A stretch of DNA of 30,881 bases, from IMG/VR virus record IMGVR_UViG_3300006802_000333, positions 1-30,881 of that record. One strand, written 5' to 3'. Positions 9,539 to 22,478 of the stretch are shown here, piece after piece (the first letter of the stretch is position 1; each line of letters begins with the position of its first letter). The DNA is from a virus. Under the pieces are notes generated by a model. That model saw only the letters and a program-made list of their open reading frames with translations, made no database searches and was not told the DNA's origin. Both the position numbers and the translations under genes were made by a program.

Positions 9539-12500
9539 TTAATAGGTGCCTCCTGTGTAGATAGCGTTTGTGGGCCATCCATAGGGCTCCTGACTCCAGG
9601 GATAGTTTGTGATATATCTGCTATCACCCACTGGTCTAGCACTGGTAAAATGCGTGTTGATGTCACTCACACCTTGTGGTGATTCTGTGTAGCCCACCAT
9701 CCAGGTTGGCCATTTACTACTAGTAAATCCTGTTGCGCCAGTGGCAAAATTTTCAGGCGTATGTTTGTAACCATGCCACAAACTAGTTTGCGATGCTGGT
9801 TCTATGGGATTCCATGCGGTATTAACACCCAGGGCATAGGTATCCTGATACAACACATCCATGTCTGACTTTGGTGGATCACTGAACTTGGTGGGTGTGC
9901 CAAAATCTATGGTTCCATTGCTGTCACCAAAACTATTGTAAGCATGACCATTCTCCAACAAATAATCAGCATATTCTGGAAAGTAAATATTGGCCGCTTC
10001 ATATCCTGGTGTCCAAGCATAGGGCACCCAAGAGTAAATTAAGTTTTGATCGCCTGAAAAATTACTAGTTCTGAAACTTTGTGTTATGTCATACCACTTT
10101 GTAGCAGTAATCACAGTGCCAGCACTCACACTAGTAGGATCTGAGCTTGGGTTTTCTATGATGCCCCAATCAAACCAAAAGTTATCATGCTTGACTAACC
10201 ATCTGTTGGGATCTGTTTGGCTCTGATATATTCTACCTGGGCCAGCAACCGCGGTATAATTTACAGTAGTGCCAGGTATGGGTGAACTACCTTCTGTAAA
10301 CAACATTTCTGCGCCTGGCACAACTCTAAATATTTCATATGTGGGTGAATTTTGTGTGCCACATGTATAATTAGCACCTGTGACAGGTGGATTATAATAA
10401 TTGCTTACTAATTGTATTTCATATTCGGATATCTTAAAGCCTACAACATTGCTATAATAGTAAGGATATAAACTAGGTATGTAATCACTGCGTGATTCTA
10501 AATAATTTGGTGGAAAATCTGCTACATTGTGTCTAAAATCACAATATGTTTCCAATCCAGCAAGAGCATAGCTAGAAATAATGTCCTGATTGGGTGATAT
10601 CAAGAACCTACCATCCGCAGAATTAGTTATATAGGCATTGATTTCATTACGCCTGTTAAAACTAGCATATGGTTTTGCTTGTCCACTACCAAACCATGCG
10701 TCATAACTCCAGTTCATGTTTTGATCTTCAGTAAACGCACCACTGGGAGGTGTCCAACGTGTTCTGTAACCACTAAGATCTTGTGTAAAGTTAGTGGCAC
10801 CTGAGAACATTTCAGCCAGGTTGTCCAACTCTACTCTACATCTACCACGCTGATAACTCTGATTGCCCCACATACTATAATATGCGGCAGTTGCGCTTCT
10901 GAGTTGCCAGTTATAGTTGCTAGTGTCCTTAGGTCTGCCATCCTGAGTAAAATTATGCCAGTTTGGTCTGGGACAATAATCTGTGATAATTCTGATAGCA
11001 CCAGTAGGCGCCCAAGCTAAATCTGTTAAACCAGTGCTGCTTTGATAGTTTACATATTCGGGTTCAGTAGGATCTGATTGTGCTCTGATTCTAGCACTGG
11101 TATCTGTGAGGTTACCCACAGGTGCTCTGTTATAACCTAAGTCAGTGGACTTGAGTGCTGTGTCATAATACACAGGTTTTACACCATAGCTATCTGTGGC
11201 ACTACCTGTCTGAACTGCTGGCAATGTGTTTGCGGCTTCTCTGGCCACTAAATCTGCTCTCACAGTAATGTTTGCCCAACCACTCCAATCCTTGTCAAGA
11301 CCAGTTGCTTGATAATTACAACCATTTGAGTTGCTAACATTAAACCAGAACCATTTCCAACCACTGCCAAGTGTGCCATTAAAATTTGTGTCCTTGAACA
11401 TGCGTTGCGCAAAAATGCTGTGATAGTAGACATTTTCCAAAGCATGATCTACACGGTTTTGGCATTCAAAGTCTATGGTTTTGCCTGACGTCCAAGCAGT
11501 AGTATCCTGGAACACACCCTGATAAAAACCTTTGCCCCAAACAGGTTTGCGTATGGTTATGTCAGAGTTTATGCCACTGCCTCTGAATGTGTCGACCATG
11601 TCAGTAGCCATAATGGTAGGCACACTACTGCCACCATTGTTATAACTGTCAGCCTCCCAGAATGTTCTCCACCAAACATGGTGATAACTTAGGCGTCCAT
11701 ATAACGCCAAGTCCAGACGCTTTTTCTCTGGATTGTGTTGATATAATGTTCTGTCCCAGTTGTCCACACTTAGGTTAAACTCTGACATCAGGTCCAGATT
11801 GTCTGGCAATGATGCTAGATCATAATACACAGGATCTGGATAATACCAATCAATGTTGCTGTTAAAATTGCTACACAAAGCAAACGTGCCCAACCTCACA
11901 CTGCTAACAGGATCACTGGTAGGTGCGGCTGTGGTTGTCCAGTCTGAAATGTCTGCGGCAAAGTTGCTACAACCAGCAAACCACCAAGGCATCAATACAT
12001 CACGATATGTGTATACACCTTTTATGTAGGTAGGTTTAGGTTGTGGCAATGTCCAGTTGCTCATGGTTGTGGGTGTGCCAGCACAACCTGTAAACACATG
12101 GTGACACTTAGCATAAGGTCTGTTTTCGTTGTGCGTGGTGTCAGCATTGTAATAGCTAAAGTTATAATCTGTGGTCCTGGGTCTGGTGTCCACACTGGTG
12201 TCATAACTGCTTAGGTCGACATTGCTAAAGTTTGTGGGGAATTGTGACTTGTAGAACATACAGCTAATGTTGCTGGAGTTTGTAAAGTCCCAGTTTGTTA
12301 TGTTGGTAGGCACATTTGTGGTGTAGGCAAACTCATAACTACAATCTGTGTTGGCCTGATACATGGGCTGGTTGTAACTACTCACAAATGTGTTACTACC
12401 TGAGCTAAACATAAATGCTTGGCTAAAGTTTGTGTTCTCACTCTGGTCACAGTGAGTTAATTGCGTTGAACTACTGGTATCTGACAAGCCCGCATACCTG

Positions 12501-15121
12501 TAAGTTTGTTCCAGGCTAGATATTTTGTGCGCAGTGTTTGATAAGTTAATAGCACTAATGTTACTGCCTTGGTGTGTTCTTATACAACTTGTGGTATCAC
12601 TGAGTGCTAACAAATTATCCAGGAATGGACTTACGTTACTGCTATCTGGCATCAAGCTAAATGTGCCATCCAACACCATCTCTGTGGTATTAGCTCTCAC
12701 AGTCCAGGTATCTGTTATAACATTGCCAGGGAAGTTTGTGGTTGACCTAAACGCATCTGTCATGATTGACTTGCTTTGGTCTGCGGTCATGTTGTTCCAA
12801 CCAAATATCAAATTGGCTGGCAAGTCATCTGGCAATCTACCACAAGCACTAAACGCACCTTGTGCCAAACCTTCACACACATCAAACAAACCATCCCAGT
12901 CATTGTTGTTGCCCAACATCACAATGTTTGCCATGTTGTTATACAAATTGCTAAGGGTCACAGTGTTAAAGGTCATGTGATTGTTGATGTCAGATGTTAT
13001 GTCACTGGTTGTGATGTTCACATCACTGTTTGCTTCATGGTCAATATATTCCCATGAATTTGTATCATGTGTGACATTAACAGCATACTGGTTTATACGC
13101 AGGTCTCTGAATCCCAATGCTTGTGTGGTGCCATAAATCACCACAGGTATGTCTGAATTAATTGCTGTCAACTTAGGCGCACTACCTTCACTGCCTAAAA
13201 TAGTAGTGACATAGGTTTTGTTATTCTTAAACACTCTGATGTTAGTATCGCCTTGTGTGGTCAATCTTAACTGACTGCCAGTTTGTAAATCTAACACAAA
13301 ATAGTAGGGACTATGTGGCCTAACAGTTGCTCCCCACCAGGGCTTCTCAAATTCTGTCCAATCACTAGTAGTGTTAAGGTCAAAGTTACTGGGTTTGCTA
13401 GGTATACCACTAACATCCCATGTGCTGATGTTTTGATCGAATATGCTAGCATCTCTGAACATGCCAATCATGTTTGTTACATCACTAACATCCCACTGAG
13501 ACATGGGTGAGTTATAAACACTAGCACCTCTGAACATTTCCTGCATGTTTGTGACATTTCTGGTGTCCCACATACTAATGTCCTGGTTAAACACACTACA
13601 ATTGCTAAACATACCATCCATGGCTGTTACATTTTGTGTATTCCAATTGTTCAAGGGTGCGTTAAAATTACTACAGCCAGCAAATGTGTTACTAAACGTT
13701 GTGGCATTGTCTGTTGCCCAGGTGTTTACAATGTTAGCACTGTCAGTAAAATCAGTGGCGTTCATGAATGTCTCATAAAAACTACCCAAGTCCTGGAATG
13801 GAGGCAATTCAAAGTCGCCTGTGACATCTTTAAACAATCTGTAACCCACAGCACTACCCACAAACACATCATCAAAGCTAGAAATATAGGTCATGCCAAT
13901 GGTGTTAGCAAACTGTGGATTGTATAAGATTCCTGCCACAGGATCATTCCATGCTGGCCAGCCATTGGTAGCCAACCAAGCATCTATGGTGGGATTGCTA
14001 ACAAATCCTTCGCCTGGGCCCAACACAGTGTATCTGCCAGTTTGGTTAATAGTAGTAGAGCTACGTCCTGCGCCAGTGTGTTCCAGATAATAAGGCATGC
14101 CATCGGGCGCCATGATCCAACAATCTGTGCTATCACCATAACTTACTTCCAGAGTGTCTGTTACATCTATGAACACTGTGTTTTCGTAATCCTGGTTGGG
14201 ATCTAACGCACAACTACCTGGTTGTAACTCCATGACAATCTCTTGCGTAGTGATTGGAACGTTTGTGGGTATTTCATACCAGGGTGGTGAGCTTGTGCCT
14301 GGAGGAAATTCAGTGTTAGGTTTGTTGTAAAGATGAACTATGGGTGACTTACACAACAATTCATCTGTGCCTTCAGCATACACATACAAGGCCATTTCTC
14401 TGTCAATAGCAGTATGACTAAAACGCATTTGCCAACGGCTTCTCACAACAAATCTACATTTGTCATTGGCACTCTTTAAATTTTTAGGTATATAATTGAC
14501 CTGGACATTAGTGTTGTCTGAATATTCACCTATGGTCTCCCAATCATATGTATTAATGACATCACCATTGGGCAATATAGTGCTACTAATTAGATCAGTA
14601 TAGGTTTTTACTCTCACAGGCTTGATGCCACTGTCAACAAAATAATTGCTGTCATAGGTTTCTTCTATCCATACCATGCCATAGTAAGGATTGTCAGGCT
14701 CTGTTTGTCCTATCTCAAAATGACTGTCACCTGGTTGTTTAAATTCGTTCACAGGGAACCAAGTAGTTTGCGCAACAAACTGACTGCCTATGTTGCCCTT
14801 TAAGATACAATACACATTGGCAACACCCTGGTCTGTGAGATATGTTTTGTCAATGTCCACACTAAACCATAATGTATTTTCATGGTTAACAATGCCTTCC
14901 ATGTTGTTTGTGGGTTGTAACAGTGGATTATTCTCAGTGCTAGATCTGATACTTTGTCCGCTATGCCAGGTGCCATGCCTAACCAACGATTTTTCTGCTA
15001 GCCCACTATCTCTGGCACTCAATTTAGTCGCATTGGTAACACTACAACTAGCATACTTTCCTGGTGCTAATTCAGTAGGACAATTTGATCCTTCAGGTGT
15101 ATAATCAATATATCTGGCCAT
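9539..15121 (-). CDS. Giant tail protein with BspA-like (DUF285) repeats, 1860 aa
   Basis: At 5.6 kb this is the largest gene. Residues 1-440 are a tail-attachment or globular region. Residues about 447-585 hold clear BspA-like (DUF285) repeats with the pattern 'MF..CS.FNQDIS.WDTRNVTNM..MFRGAS', four units in a row. More degenerate copies are scattered on to about 1480 (for example WWFAGCSNFAADISDW, MVDTFRGSG, MFSGATNFTQDLSGY). The C-terminal 350 residues look like an Ig- or beta-type end. DUF285 repeats form a leucine-rich-repeat-like solenoid best known from surface proteins of bacteria and protists that bind host molecules. A phage tail using one would be a receptor-binding protein. It is rich in Asn, Thr, Tyr and Trp, with few Lys. 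GAGGG lies eight bases before the start. Confidence 0.85.
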   Translation of the reverse strand: MARYIDYTPEGSNCPTELAPGKYASCSVTNATKLSARDSGLAEKSLVRHGTWHSGQSIRSSTENNPLLQPTNNMEGIVNHENTLWFSVDIDKTYLTDQGVANVYCILKGNIGSQFVAQTTWFPVNEFKQPGDSHFEIGQTEPDNPYYGMVWIEETYDSNYFVDSGIKPVRVKTYTDLISSTILPNGDVINTYDWETIGEYSDNTNVQVNYIPKNLKSANDKCRFVVRSRWQMRFSHTAIDREMALYVYAEGTDELLCKSPIVHLYNKPNTEFPPGTSSPPWYEIPTNVPITTQEIVMELQPGSCALDPNQDYENTVFIDVTDTLEVSYGDSTDCWIMAPDGMPYYLEHTGAGRSSTTINQTGRYTVLGPGEGFVSNPTIDAWLATNGWPAWNDPVAGILYNPQFANTIGMTYISSFDDVFVGSAVGYRLFKDVTGDFELPPFQDLGSFYETFMNATDFTDSANIVNTWATDNATTFSNTFAGCSNFNAPLNNWNTQNVTAMDGMFSNCSVFNQDISMWDTRNVTNMQEMFRGASVYNSPMSQWDVSDVTNMIGMFRDASIFDQNISTWDVSGIPSKPSNFDLNTTSDWTEFEKPWWGATVRPHSPYYFVLDLQTGSQLRLTTQGDTNIRVFKNNKTYVTTILGSEGSAPKLTAINSDIPVVIYGTTQALGFRDLRINQYAVNVTHDTNSWEYIDHEANSDVNITTSDITSDINNHMTFNTVTLSNLYNNMANIVMLGNNNDWDGLFDVCEGLAQGAFSACGRLPDDLPANLIFGWNNMTADQSKSIMTDAFRSTTNFPGNVITDTWTVRANTTEMVLDGTFSLMPDSSNVSPFLDNLLALSDTTSCIRTHQGSNISAINLSNTAHKISSLEQTYRYAGLSDTSSSTQLTHCDQSENTNFSQAFMFSSGSNTFVSSYNQPMYQANTDCSYEFAYTTNVPTNITNWDFTNSSNISCMFYKSQFPTNFSNVDLSSYDTSVDTRPRTTDYNFSYYNADTTHNENRPYAKCHHVFTGCAGTPTTMSNWTLPQPKPTYIKGVYTYRDVLMPWWFAGCSNFAADISDWTTTAAPTSDPVSSVRLGTFALCSNFNSNIDWYYPDPVYYDLASLPDNLDLMSEFNLSVDNWDRTLYQHNPEKKRLDLALYGRLSYHHVWWRTFWEADSYNNGGSSVPTIMATDMVDTFRGSGINSDITIRKPVWGKGFYQGVFQDTTAWTSGKTIDFECQNRVDHALENVYYHSIFAQRMFKDTNFNGTLGSGWKWFWFNVSNSNGCNYQATGLDKDWSGWANITVRADLVAREAANTLPAVQTGSATDSYGVKPVYYDTALKSTDLGYNRAPVGNLTDTSARIRAQSDPTEPEYVNYQSSTGLTDLAWAPTGAIRIITDYCPRPNWHNFTQDGRPKDTSNYNWQLRSATAAYYSMWGNQSYQRGRCRVELDNLAEMFSGATNFTQDLSGYRTRWTPPSGAFTEDQNMNWSYDAWFGSGQAKPYASFNRRNEINAYITNSADGRFLISPNQDIISSYALAGLETYCDFRHNVADFPPNYLESRSDYIPSLYPYYYSNVVGFKISEYEIQLVSNYYNPPVTGANYTCGTQNSPTYEIFRVVPGAEMLFTEGSSPIPGTTVNYTAVAGPGRIYQSQTDPNRWLVKHDNFWFDWGIIENPSSDPTSVSAGTVITATKWYDITQSFRTSNFSGDQNLIYSWVPYAWTPGYEAANIYFPEYADYLLENGHAYNSFGDSNGTIDFGTPTKFSDPPKSDMDVLYQDTYALGVNTAWNPIEPASQTSLWHGYKHTPENFATGATGFTSSKWPTWMVGYTESPQGVSDINTHFTSARPVGDSRYITNYPWSQEPYGWPTNAIYTGGTY
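13367..13783 (-). repeat. Core block of BspA-like (DUF285) protein repeats
   Basis: This is the coding stretch for residues 447-585 of the 1860-aa protein. Units of about 24 residues recur with conserved F-N-x-x-(I/L)-S/N-x-W-(D/N)-(T/V) and V-T-N/A-M-x-x-M-F. Copies are diverged at DNA level, so this is an old protein repeat, not a recent tandem duplication. Confidence 0.85.
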
Positions 15122-21266: not shown

Positions 21267-21545
21267 TTAAAATCTCCTTAGTTTTTCCGAGATCAATCTG
21301 TCCACATAATCTATGGTAGGATCGACCATGCCGTCAGGAGCTTGTCTGCTCCAACCATCATCCAATCTGCCAGCATAGGCATAATCAGCTTTGATGGTCT
21401 CTTTCCTTAATCTGGTATTACGTCTAGCATTGCCTGACCTCACAGGTGTTTCACCCACAAAGAATGTGTATGCCTTTTCTGGCACACCGTCAATGATCTT
21501 TTCTAAACCATTAATTAACTTCTTCTTGTCTTTGGTCATGCTCAT
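21267..21545 (-). CDS. Small gp10-like tail completion protein, 92 aa
   Basis: The middle reads TPVRSGNARRNTRL and ADYAYAGRLDDGWSRQAPDGM, a pattern shared by HK97 gp10-like minor structural proteins, which often sit near the connectors; here the gene is between the chaperones and the tape measure. It is basic and soluble. A second ATG two codons downstream (21539) is also possible. The stop touches the tape-measure ATG, and the start overlaps the end of the chaperone frame by 35 bases. Confidence 0.7.
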   Translation of the reverse strand: MSMTKDKKKLINGLEKIIDGVPEKAYTFFVGETPVRSGNARRNTRLRKETIKADYAYAGRLDDGWSRQAPDGMVDPTIDYVDRLISEKLRRF

Positions 21546-22088
21546 GCTTTGCTCTCTTTTGTTTTATTGTCTCAGCTAGAGCTTTGGTATCATAGCCTGC
21601 TAAGGGATCTTTTTGTCTATCATGCTGTAGTTTTCTGTAACTAGTGCTGATGTCAAATACCCATAAATCAAAGGTCGAGGCTCTGGCTAATACCTCACCA
21701 GGCAACAATCCATATCTTTCAGCTAGGCTGTCCAATATAAGCGCACGGCTAACATCAGGATCATTTTCTGATATTTCGTGCTTTAAAACTTTCCCAAGTT
21801 GCTGACTACACGGTTAATGGCCAAGCTCATTACATAGCCTGGTAATACATCACCATCACCTATGAGTTCGTTGCCAGATTCATCCAGGATCATGGTTTTA
21901 CAAAATTCTATCAGGGCCGGCATATTTTCAGTGTTTACTTCTTTGCCTACCAGGCCTAAATATTTTTCCATGGGTTGTCTGTCCCAGGTATAGAATTCCA
22001 GTGACTCGCCGTATTGCTCGACAATCTGTTCTTCGTCTAGGGTAATTTTAATTAATCGGGGTTTTGCCGCTATGTCTGAAAGTTTCAT
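21511..22088 (-). CDS. Tail assembly chaperone, frameshifted long form (lambda GT analogue), about 192 aa
   Basis: A -1 shift at 21789-21795 joins residues 1-100 of the short form to a 92-residue extension read from 21789 to the stop at 21511. The extension is open right from the slip point (VLKHEISEND...) and has the look of a T-type domain: LDSLAERYGLLPGEVL, then STFDLWVFDISTSY and a charged helix. The separate frame has no good start of its own (only a TTG at 21735 without Shine-Dalgarno), which supports production by frameshifting. In lambda the long form binds the tape measure and recruits tail-tube subunits. Confidence 0.8.
21783..22088 (-). CDS. Tail assembly chaperone, short form (lambda G analogue), 101 aa
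   Basis: Located between the major tail protein and the tape measure, where siphophages keep their tail chaperones. It is small, soluble and acidic, with a typical FYTWDRQPMEKYLGL stretch near 31-45. Its last codons form a slippery site (21789-21795), so a fraction of ribosomes should shift to -1 and make the long form. GGAG lies nine bases before the ATG. Only the short form ends with Phe101 at 21783. Confidence 0.8.
   Translation of the reverse strand: MKLSDIAAKPRLIKITLDEEQIVEQYGESLEFYTWDRQPMEKYLGLVGKEVNTENMPALIEFCKTMILDESGNELIGDGDVLPGYVMSLAINRVVSNLGKF
21789..21795 (-). promoter_or_regulatory. Programmed -1 frameshift slippery site GGGAAAG
   Basis: Read in the chaperone frame the heptamer is G GGA AAG, the X XXY YYZ pattern and the same sequence used at the lambda G/T junction. 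The short frame ends two codons later, and the -1 frame is open for 92 residues. A weak 5-bp stem (ATCAG/CTGAT) lies about 16 bases downstream; its role is doubtful. Confidence 0.85.
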
Positions 22089-22091
22089 CTA

Positions 22092-22274
22092 TCAATCTCC
22101 ATCTTGATTTTTGATCGAGTGTATGCCACTAAGGCAAAAACTCAATCTACTACTAACTTTATCTGAGTCCTTTTGTAAGCAACTCAGTTCATTCTTGGCT
22201 TTCGCTATCTCCTGCTCCAGAATCTTGATCTTCTGGTCCAGGCTCAACGTCGACCACAGTTGATTTTGCTTCAT
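22092..22274 (-). CDS. Small coiled-coil protein, 60 aa
   Basis: LDQKIKILEQEIAKAKNELSCLQKDSDKVSSRL (in part, residues 12-44) is a heptad-patterned coiled coil. AAGG lies about nine bases before the ATG. The frame overlaps the end of the 76-aa gene by 86 bases and stops three bases before the chaperone start, so it fills the gap tightly. Spacing favours a real gene, but overlapping frames make it less sure than its neighbours. No family is recognised. Confidence 0.45.
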   Translation of the reverse strand: MKQNQLWSTLSLDQKIKILEQEIAKAKNELSCLQKDSDKVSSRLSFCLSGIHSIKNQDGD

Positions 22275-22419
22275 CTTGGTCTACCTTAATATCTTTTTGT
22301 GAGATACCACAGTATCGTAACGCACGTTCCCAGGTAAACTGTTTGCCACCTATGTTAAATGTCTCAGGTGGATTATTCTGGTGTGCTAATACAAATTTTT
22401 TAACTCTGTTTACACTCAT
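22189..22419 (-). CDS. Small hypothetical protein after the major tail protein, 76 aa
   Basis: The N-terminal half (VKKFVLAHQNNPPETFNIGGKQFTW..ALRYCGISQKDI) looks folded and basic; the C-terminal half is acidic and unstructured (EPGPEDQDSGAGDSESQE). The Shine-Dalgarno is weak, and the gene starts just after the GC hairpins that follow the tail protein. Position fits a tail accessory or chaperone partner. No family is recognised. Confidence 0.55.
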   Translation of the reverse strand: MSVNRVKKFVLAHQNNPPETFNIGGKQFTWERALRYCGISQKDIKVDQDEAKSTVVDVEPGPEDQDSGAGDSESQE

Positions 22420-22440
22420 AATCTTATCTCTATTTAGTTA

Positions 22441-22478
22441 GGGGGGATAAACCCCCCCACCGTTAGGGATGCGTCCCT
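22441..22478 (-). terminator. Two GC hairpins after the major tail protein (attenuator or mRNA stabiliser)
   Basis: GGGGGG-ataaa-CCCCCC (22441-22457) and AGGGA-tgcg-TCCCT (22465-22478) lie at and just after the stop of the major tail gene. There is no T-run on the minus strand, so full termination is unlikely. Partial attenuation or protection of the abundant upstream capsid and tail message is a fair guess. Confidence 0.45.

Follow-up and report, generated by a model that had tools for sequence, protein, structure and literature searches.

The 30,881 bp stretch of DNA analysed here, called the window throughout, comes from an uncultured tailed phage and encodes what is almost certainly a pair of tail chaperones whose expression relies on programmed -1 ribosomal frameshifting in the manner of lambda G/GT, with the shifting itself inferred from the sequence. 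The late genes of the window lie on the minus strand, and the pair lies with them. The first member, a putative G-like tail assembly chaperone recognized by its ORF, profile and predicted fold, is a short zero-frame ORF of 101 aa at positions 22088–21783 (minus strand). The 3′ end of this ORF reads AAC TTG GGA AAG TTT TAA, with the stop codon TAA at 21783. The slippery heptamer G GGA AAG (21795–21789, minus), assigned by phase, uniqueness and conservation, is placed in the X XXY YYZ phase that a tandem -1 slip needs, and one sense codon (TTT) separates it from the TAA. Beyond the slip, the -1 frame continues as GTT TTA AAG CAC and remains open to a TAA at 21511, giving a T-like extension of 92 codons plus stop (21789–21511, minus) that is identified by its reading frame, by dN/dS and by membership of the conserved family A4. 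The extension would be translated only as the C-terminal part of a fusion, whose predicted junction peptide is GKVLK. Upstream, a TAA closes the -1 frame just nine codons ahead of the junction. Within the window, the -1 frame contains no ATG or GTG ahead of or inside the T domain, and its only candidate starts are late TTG codons, the earliest of which is codon 19 past the junction, at 21735. An initial annotation made from the raw sequence had given the same ORF coordinates, heptamer phase, 92-residue -1 frame and GKVLK junction without naming the minus strand, and had described the -1 frame as lacking a good start of its own; re-reading the sequence agreed on each of these points.

The heptamer and the open frame were compared with chance expectation. 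GGGAAAG occurs once in the window when both strands are counted, and the probability of NNG-GGA-AAG given the residues Leu-Gly-Lys was 0.027 by codon usage. Among 4,453 -1-frame runs in the other genes of the window, none reaches 92 codons, and the median run is 5.

Relatives were collected from IMG/VR by a profile search with the first protein of the pair, which returned 69 related loci, and by a search with the T domain, which returned nine loci, five of them on contigs absent from the first-protein search. G-domain profile matches were present in all relatives collected. Loci less than 70% identical to one another were taken as 26 representatives. All 26 carry a heptamer of this kind at the same codon: GGGAAAG in 21, GGGAAAA in two, GGGAAAC in one and GGGGAAG in two, the last of which should be less slippery than the others. 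The loss of the heptamer among relatives, proposed earlier as the outcome that would count against frameshifting, was thus not observed. Glycine at the heptamer is encoded by GGA in 24 of the 26 representatives, compared with 31 of 251 (12%) at the other glycine positions of these genes (binomial p = 4e-20, a value that is too small because shared ancestry is ignored). Most of the distant relatives end the zero frame directly after the heptamer (GGA AAG TAA); in the window and its three closest relatives an additional codon precedes the stop. Outside IMG/VR, neither three family members used as tblastn queries nor a blastn comparison of the window's own region matched any of 50,697 phage records from isolates. 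No relative was confirmed in 84,980 bacterial and archaeal genomes, using a seed method that may miss distant ones. In Pelagibacter phages with a similar terminase and tape measure protein, an equivalent pair was not traced.

Selection on the -1 frame was examined across the join, as the initial annotation had advised. Pairwise dN/dS between the window and three relatives was 0.11–0.20 in the -1 frame, and values in the zero-frame gene were similar. Constraint extends to the opening 18 codons, which lie ahead of any start codon in the window (pS 0.58–0.65, pN 0.05–0.22). This substitution pattern marks the -1 frame as coding for a conserved protein, with purifying selection acting from the first codons onward, and selection on codons beyond the reach of any start is the strongest evidence here for the fusion. 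It bears directly on the alternative in which the -1 frame holds a gene of its own, started internally, for example at the TTG at 21735, and the heptamer is incidental. A TTG-started ORF of 74 aa does exist at 21735–21511, and PHROG 6541, a family of 69 residues with no assigned function, starts roughly 20 residues inside the T domain, which looks as though annotators had picked an internal start. Such a gene would, however, leave the selection on the 18 preceding codons unaccounted for, and it would not explain why the heptamer is retained across 26 diverged representatives. Furthermore, the positions of TTG codons in the -1 frame vary between relatives, and two of these (L003 and L004) lack ATG, GTG and TTG until about codon 43, already inside the conserved domain. 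We consider a separately started gene very improbable.

A single gene split by a sequencing error or by an inactivating frameshift mutation can present the same picture of one protein broken across two frames, and one remote relative, L073 (IMGVR_UViG_3300012347_000100), does hold both domains in a single frame. Against this, the break falls at the same codon in all other relatives, which come from independent metagenomes, and it recurs in L002, a second contig from this virus. Sequencing error and pseudogene formation were ruled out by this conserved break, and the probability left to a split gene is negligible. L073 is the only relative without a slippery heptamer. It has a G gene at 1–369 and a neighbouring in-frame G-T ORF at 336–923 that matches both domain profiles (E = 8.9e-16 and 4.2e-17). 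The arrangement is read as a duplication of G in place of frameshifting, and the in-frame G-T gene independently suggests a need for the fusion. L073 offers a naturally occurring substitute for frameshifting that is convenient for testing. The two frames could, finally, be joined by slippage during transcription instead of translation. Polymerase slippage requires longer homopolymer runs than the GGG and AAA present at this site, and the element that is conserved is a tandem-codon slip motif; a transcriptional join is extremely unlikely, even though bacterial polymerases do slip on repeated bases (reviewed in PMC5009743).

Under programmed ribosomal frameshifting, the majority of ribosomes would complete the short protein and terminate at the TAA at 21783. 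On the remainder, the glycyl- and lysyl-tRNAs positioned on G GGA AAG would slip back one base, re-pair with GGG AAA and read 92 more codons to produce a G-T fusion. The G:GT ratio in lambda is about 30:1, and by analogy this minority would amount to a few percent. Many copies of the short protein would then coat the tape measure protein, the T domain of the few fusion copies would recruit the major tail protein, and both forms would leave the finished tail. We infer the chaperone function, the frameshift rate and the binding partners of the pair from this analogy.

The lambda G and GT proteins are the reference for this arrangement (Levin 1993; Xu 2004, 2013, 2014, as cited in PMC5009743); the short part binds the tape measure protein and T recruits the major tail protein, with both sequence and role described (PMC5009743). 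In lambda and in the window the heptamer is the same, G GGA AAG, and lies close to where the short ORF ends; they also share the -1 direction of the shift, a T frame without a start, and the location of the pair between the major tail and tape measure protein genes. Sequence similarity to lambda is undetectable, and the window differs further in a Neck1-like gene that separates the pair from the tape measure gene and in possibly structured RNA past the slip site. The initial annotation had stated that sequence, phase and position all match lambda; the match in heptamer sequence and phase held, and the lambda gene order is not reproduced exactly, given the intervening Neck1-like gene. The same heptamer, GGGAAAG, is found in the Lactococcus lactis phage TP901-1, where it lies at the 3′ end of gpG, serves as the -1 frameshift site giving gpGT and has been targeted by mutation (PMC4493119).

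The proteins themselves were characterized by sequence and by predicted structure. No known chaperone family in Pfam matched any of 32 members of the first-protein family, and the PHROG matches of the pair are families of unknown function. A PDB profile search with the short protein gave chance-level matches only. The short protein, modelled with a pLDDT of 83, had the HK97 tail assembly chaperone (2ob9) as its closest solved structure, with a weak Z of 5.7, followed by 5ir0 (Z 5.3) and Bacillus subtilis YqbN (3klu; Z 5.2); the next rows scored 2.1. The predicted fold is similar to those of 2ob9 and 3klu at approximately 10% identity, a modest match that is supportive rather than decisive. Foldseek alone gave E = 0.19 for the short protein, and among its best matches to predicted structures of viral proteins is one that bears the name tail assembly chaperone (E = 2e-8). 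The T domain was predicted to be helical with a mean pLDDT of 86, and a convincing fold match for its model was not found. Since homology to lambda G or T is undetectable, the name tail chaperone is drawn from position, fold and frameshift architecture.

The surrounding genes are those of a tail assembly region. Downstream of the pair are a Neck1/tail-completion-like gene of 92 aa (21545–21267, minus; PHROG 169 "tail completion or Neck1", E = 7.5e-8) and a tape measure protein gene of 690 aa (21266–19194, minus; Pfam PF09718 Tape_meas_lam_C, E = 1.5e-10; PHROG 24, E = 4.6e-14). Upstream, a 183-aa protein (23014–22463, minus) had no Pfam or PHROG match and is, by position and size, the probable major tail protein, so that the pair sits between this gene and the tape measure gene. 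Gene order in the relatives is MTP-like, small ORF, G, T, Neck1-like and tape measure. A gene of about 90–125 aa separates T from the tape measure gene in 25 of the 26 representatives, and in the other (L063) the contig ends. As in the window, the Neck1/tail-completion PHROG match was clear in five of six relatives tested; the sixth was weak. Two small ORFs upstream of G (22092–22274 and 22189–22419, minus), read in different frames, share 86 nt, and this overlap is kept in L003–L005, three close but diverged relatives. Distant relatives too have a similar-sized ORF directly upstream of G.

RNA folding was predicted on both sides of the heptamer. A candidate stimulator RNA lies directly downstream of the slip site (21785–21700, minus), where the predicted folding of the window gave a z of -2.64 relative to shuffles. 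Across the 26 representatives, 70-nt windows after the heptamer had a mean z of -1.57 compared with -0.39 for background (Mann-Whitney p = 1.3e-5, with shared ancestry ignored). A common downstream fold was not shared among the four closest relatives. The downstream structure is a possible frameshift stimulator. Separately, a strong hairpin was located at 22436–22463 (minus), just after the probable major tail protein gene. Its counterpart in relatives lies approximately 480–700 nt upstream of the heptamer, where the folding z averages -3.2 at one offset, and in several relatives the hairpin is accompanied by a T-run and resembles an intrinsic terminator. This hairpin may lower expression of the chaperones and tape measure protein relative to the tail protein.

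The architecture is a textbook one and the kind of frameshift is already known (Xu, Hendrix and Duda 2004). Its proteins here are new and diverged, and with them the known tail-chaperone frameshifts gain a diverse family that is uncultured to date. A more specific reading, put forward only tentatively and judged somewhat doubtful, is that of an uncultured chaperone lineage, absent from the isolate phages searched here, that combines a Neck1-like gene in the assembly unit, an RNA-tuned shift, and at least one branch in which G duplication and G-T fusion took the place of frameshifting. An annotation that overlooks the shift would lose or shorten the T domain, and PHROG 6541 looks like such a truncation. 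The case also illustrates how comparing relatives can settle a guess made from the raw sequence.

Two further observations were made in the same genomes. An extra G-like gene of approximately 97 aa is present between T and the Neck1-like gene in six relatives (L034, L035 and L039–L042). In the tail-fibre region of the window, positions 9539–15121 (minus) encode a 1,860-aa protein with recurring F.GCSNFN..L..WNTQNVT.M..MF motifs, and the sequence of these repeats is suggestive of BspA-like surface-protein repeats.
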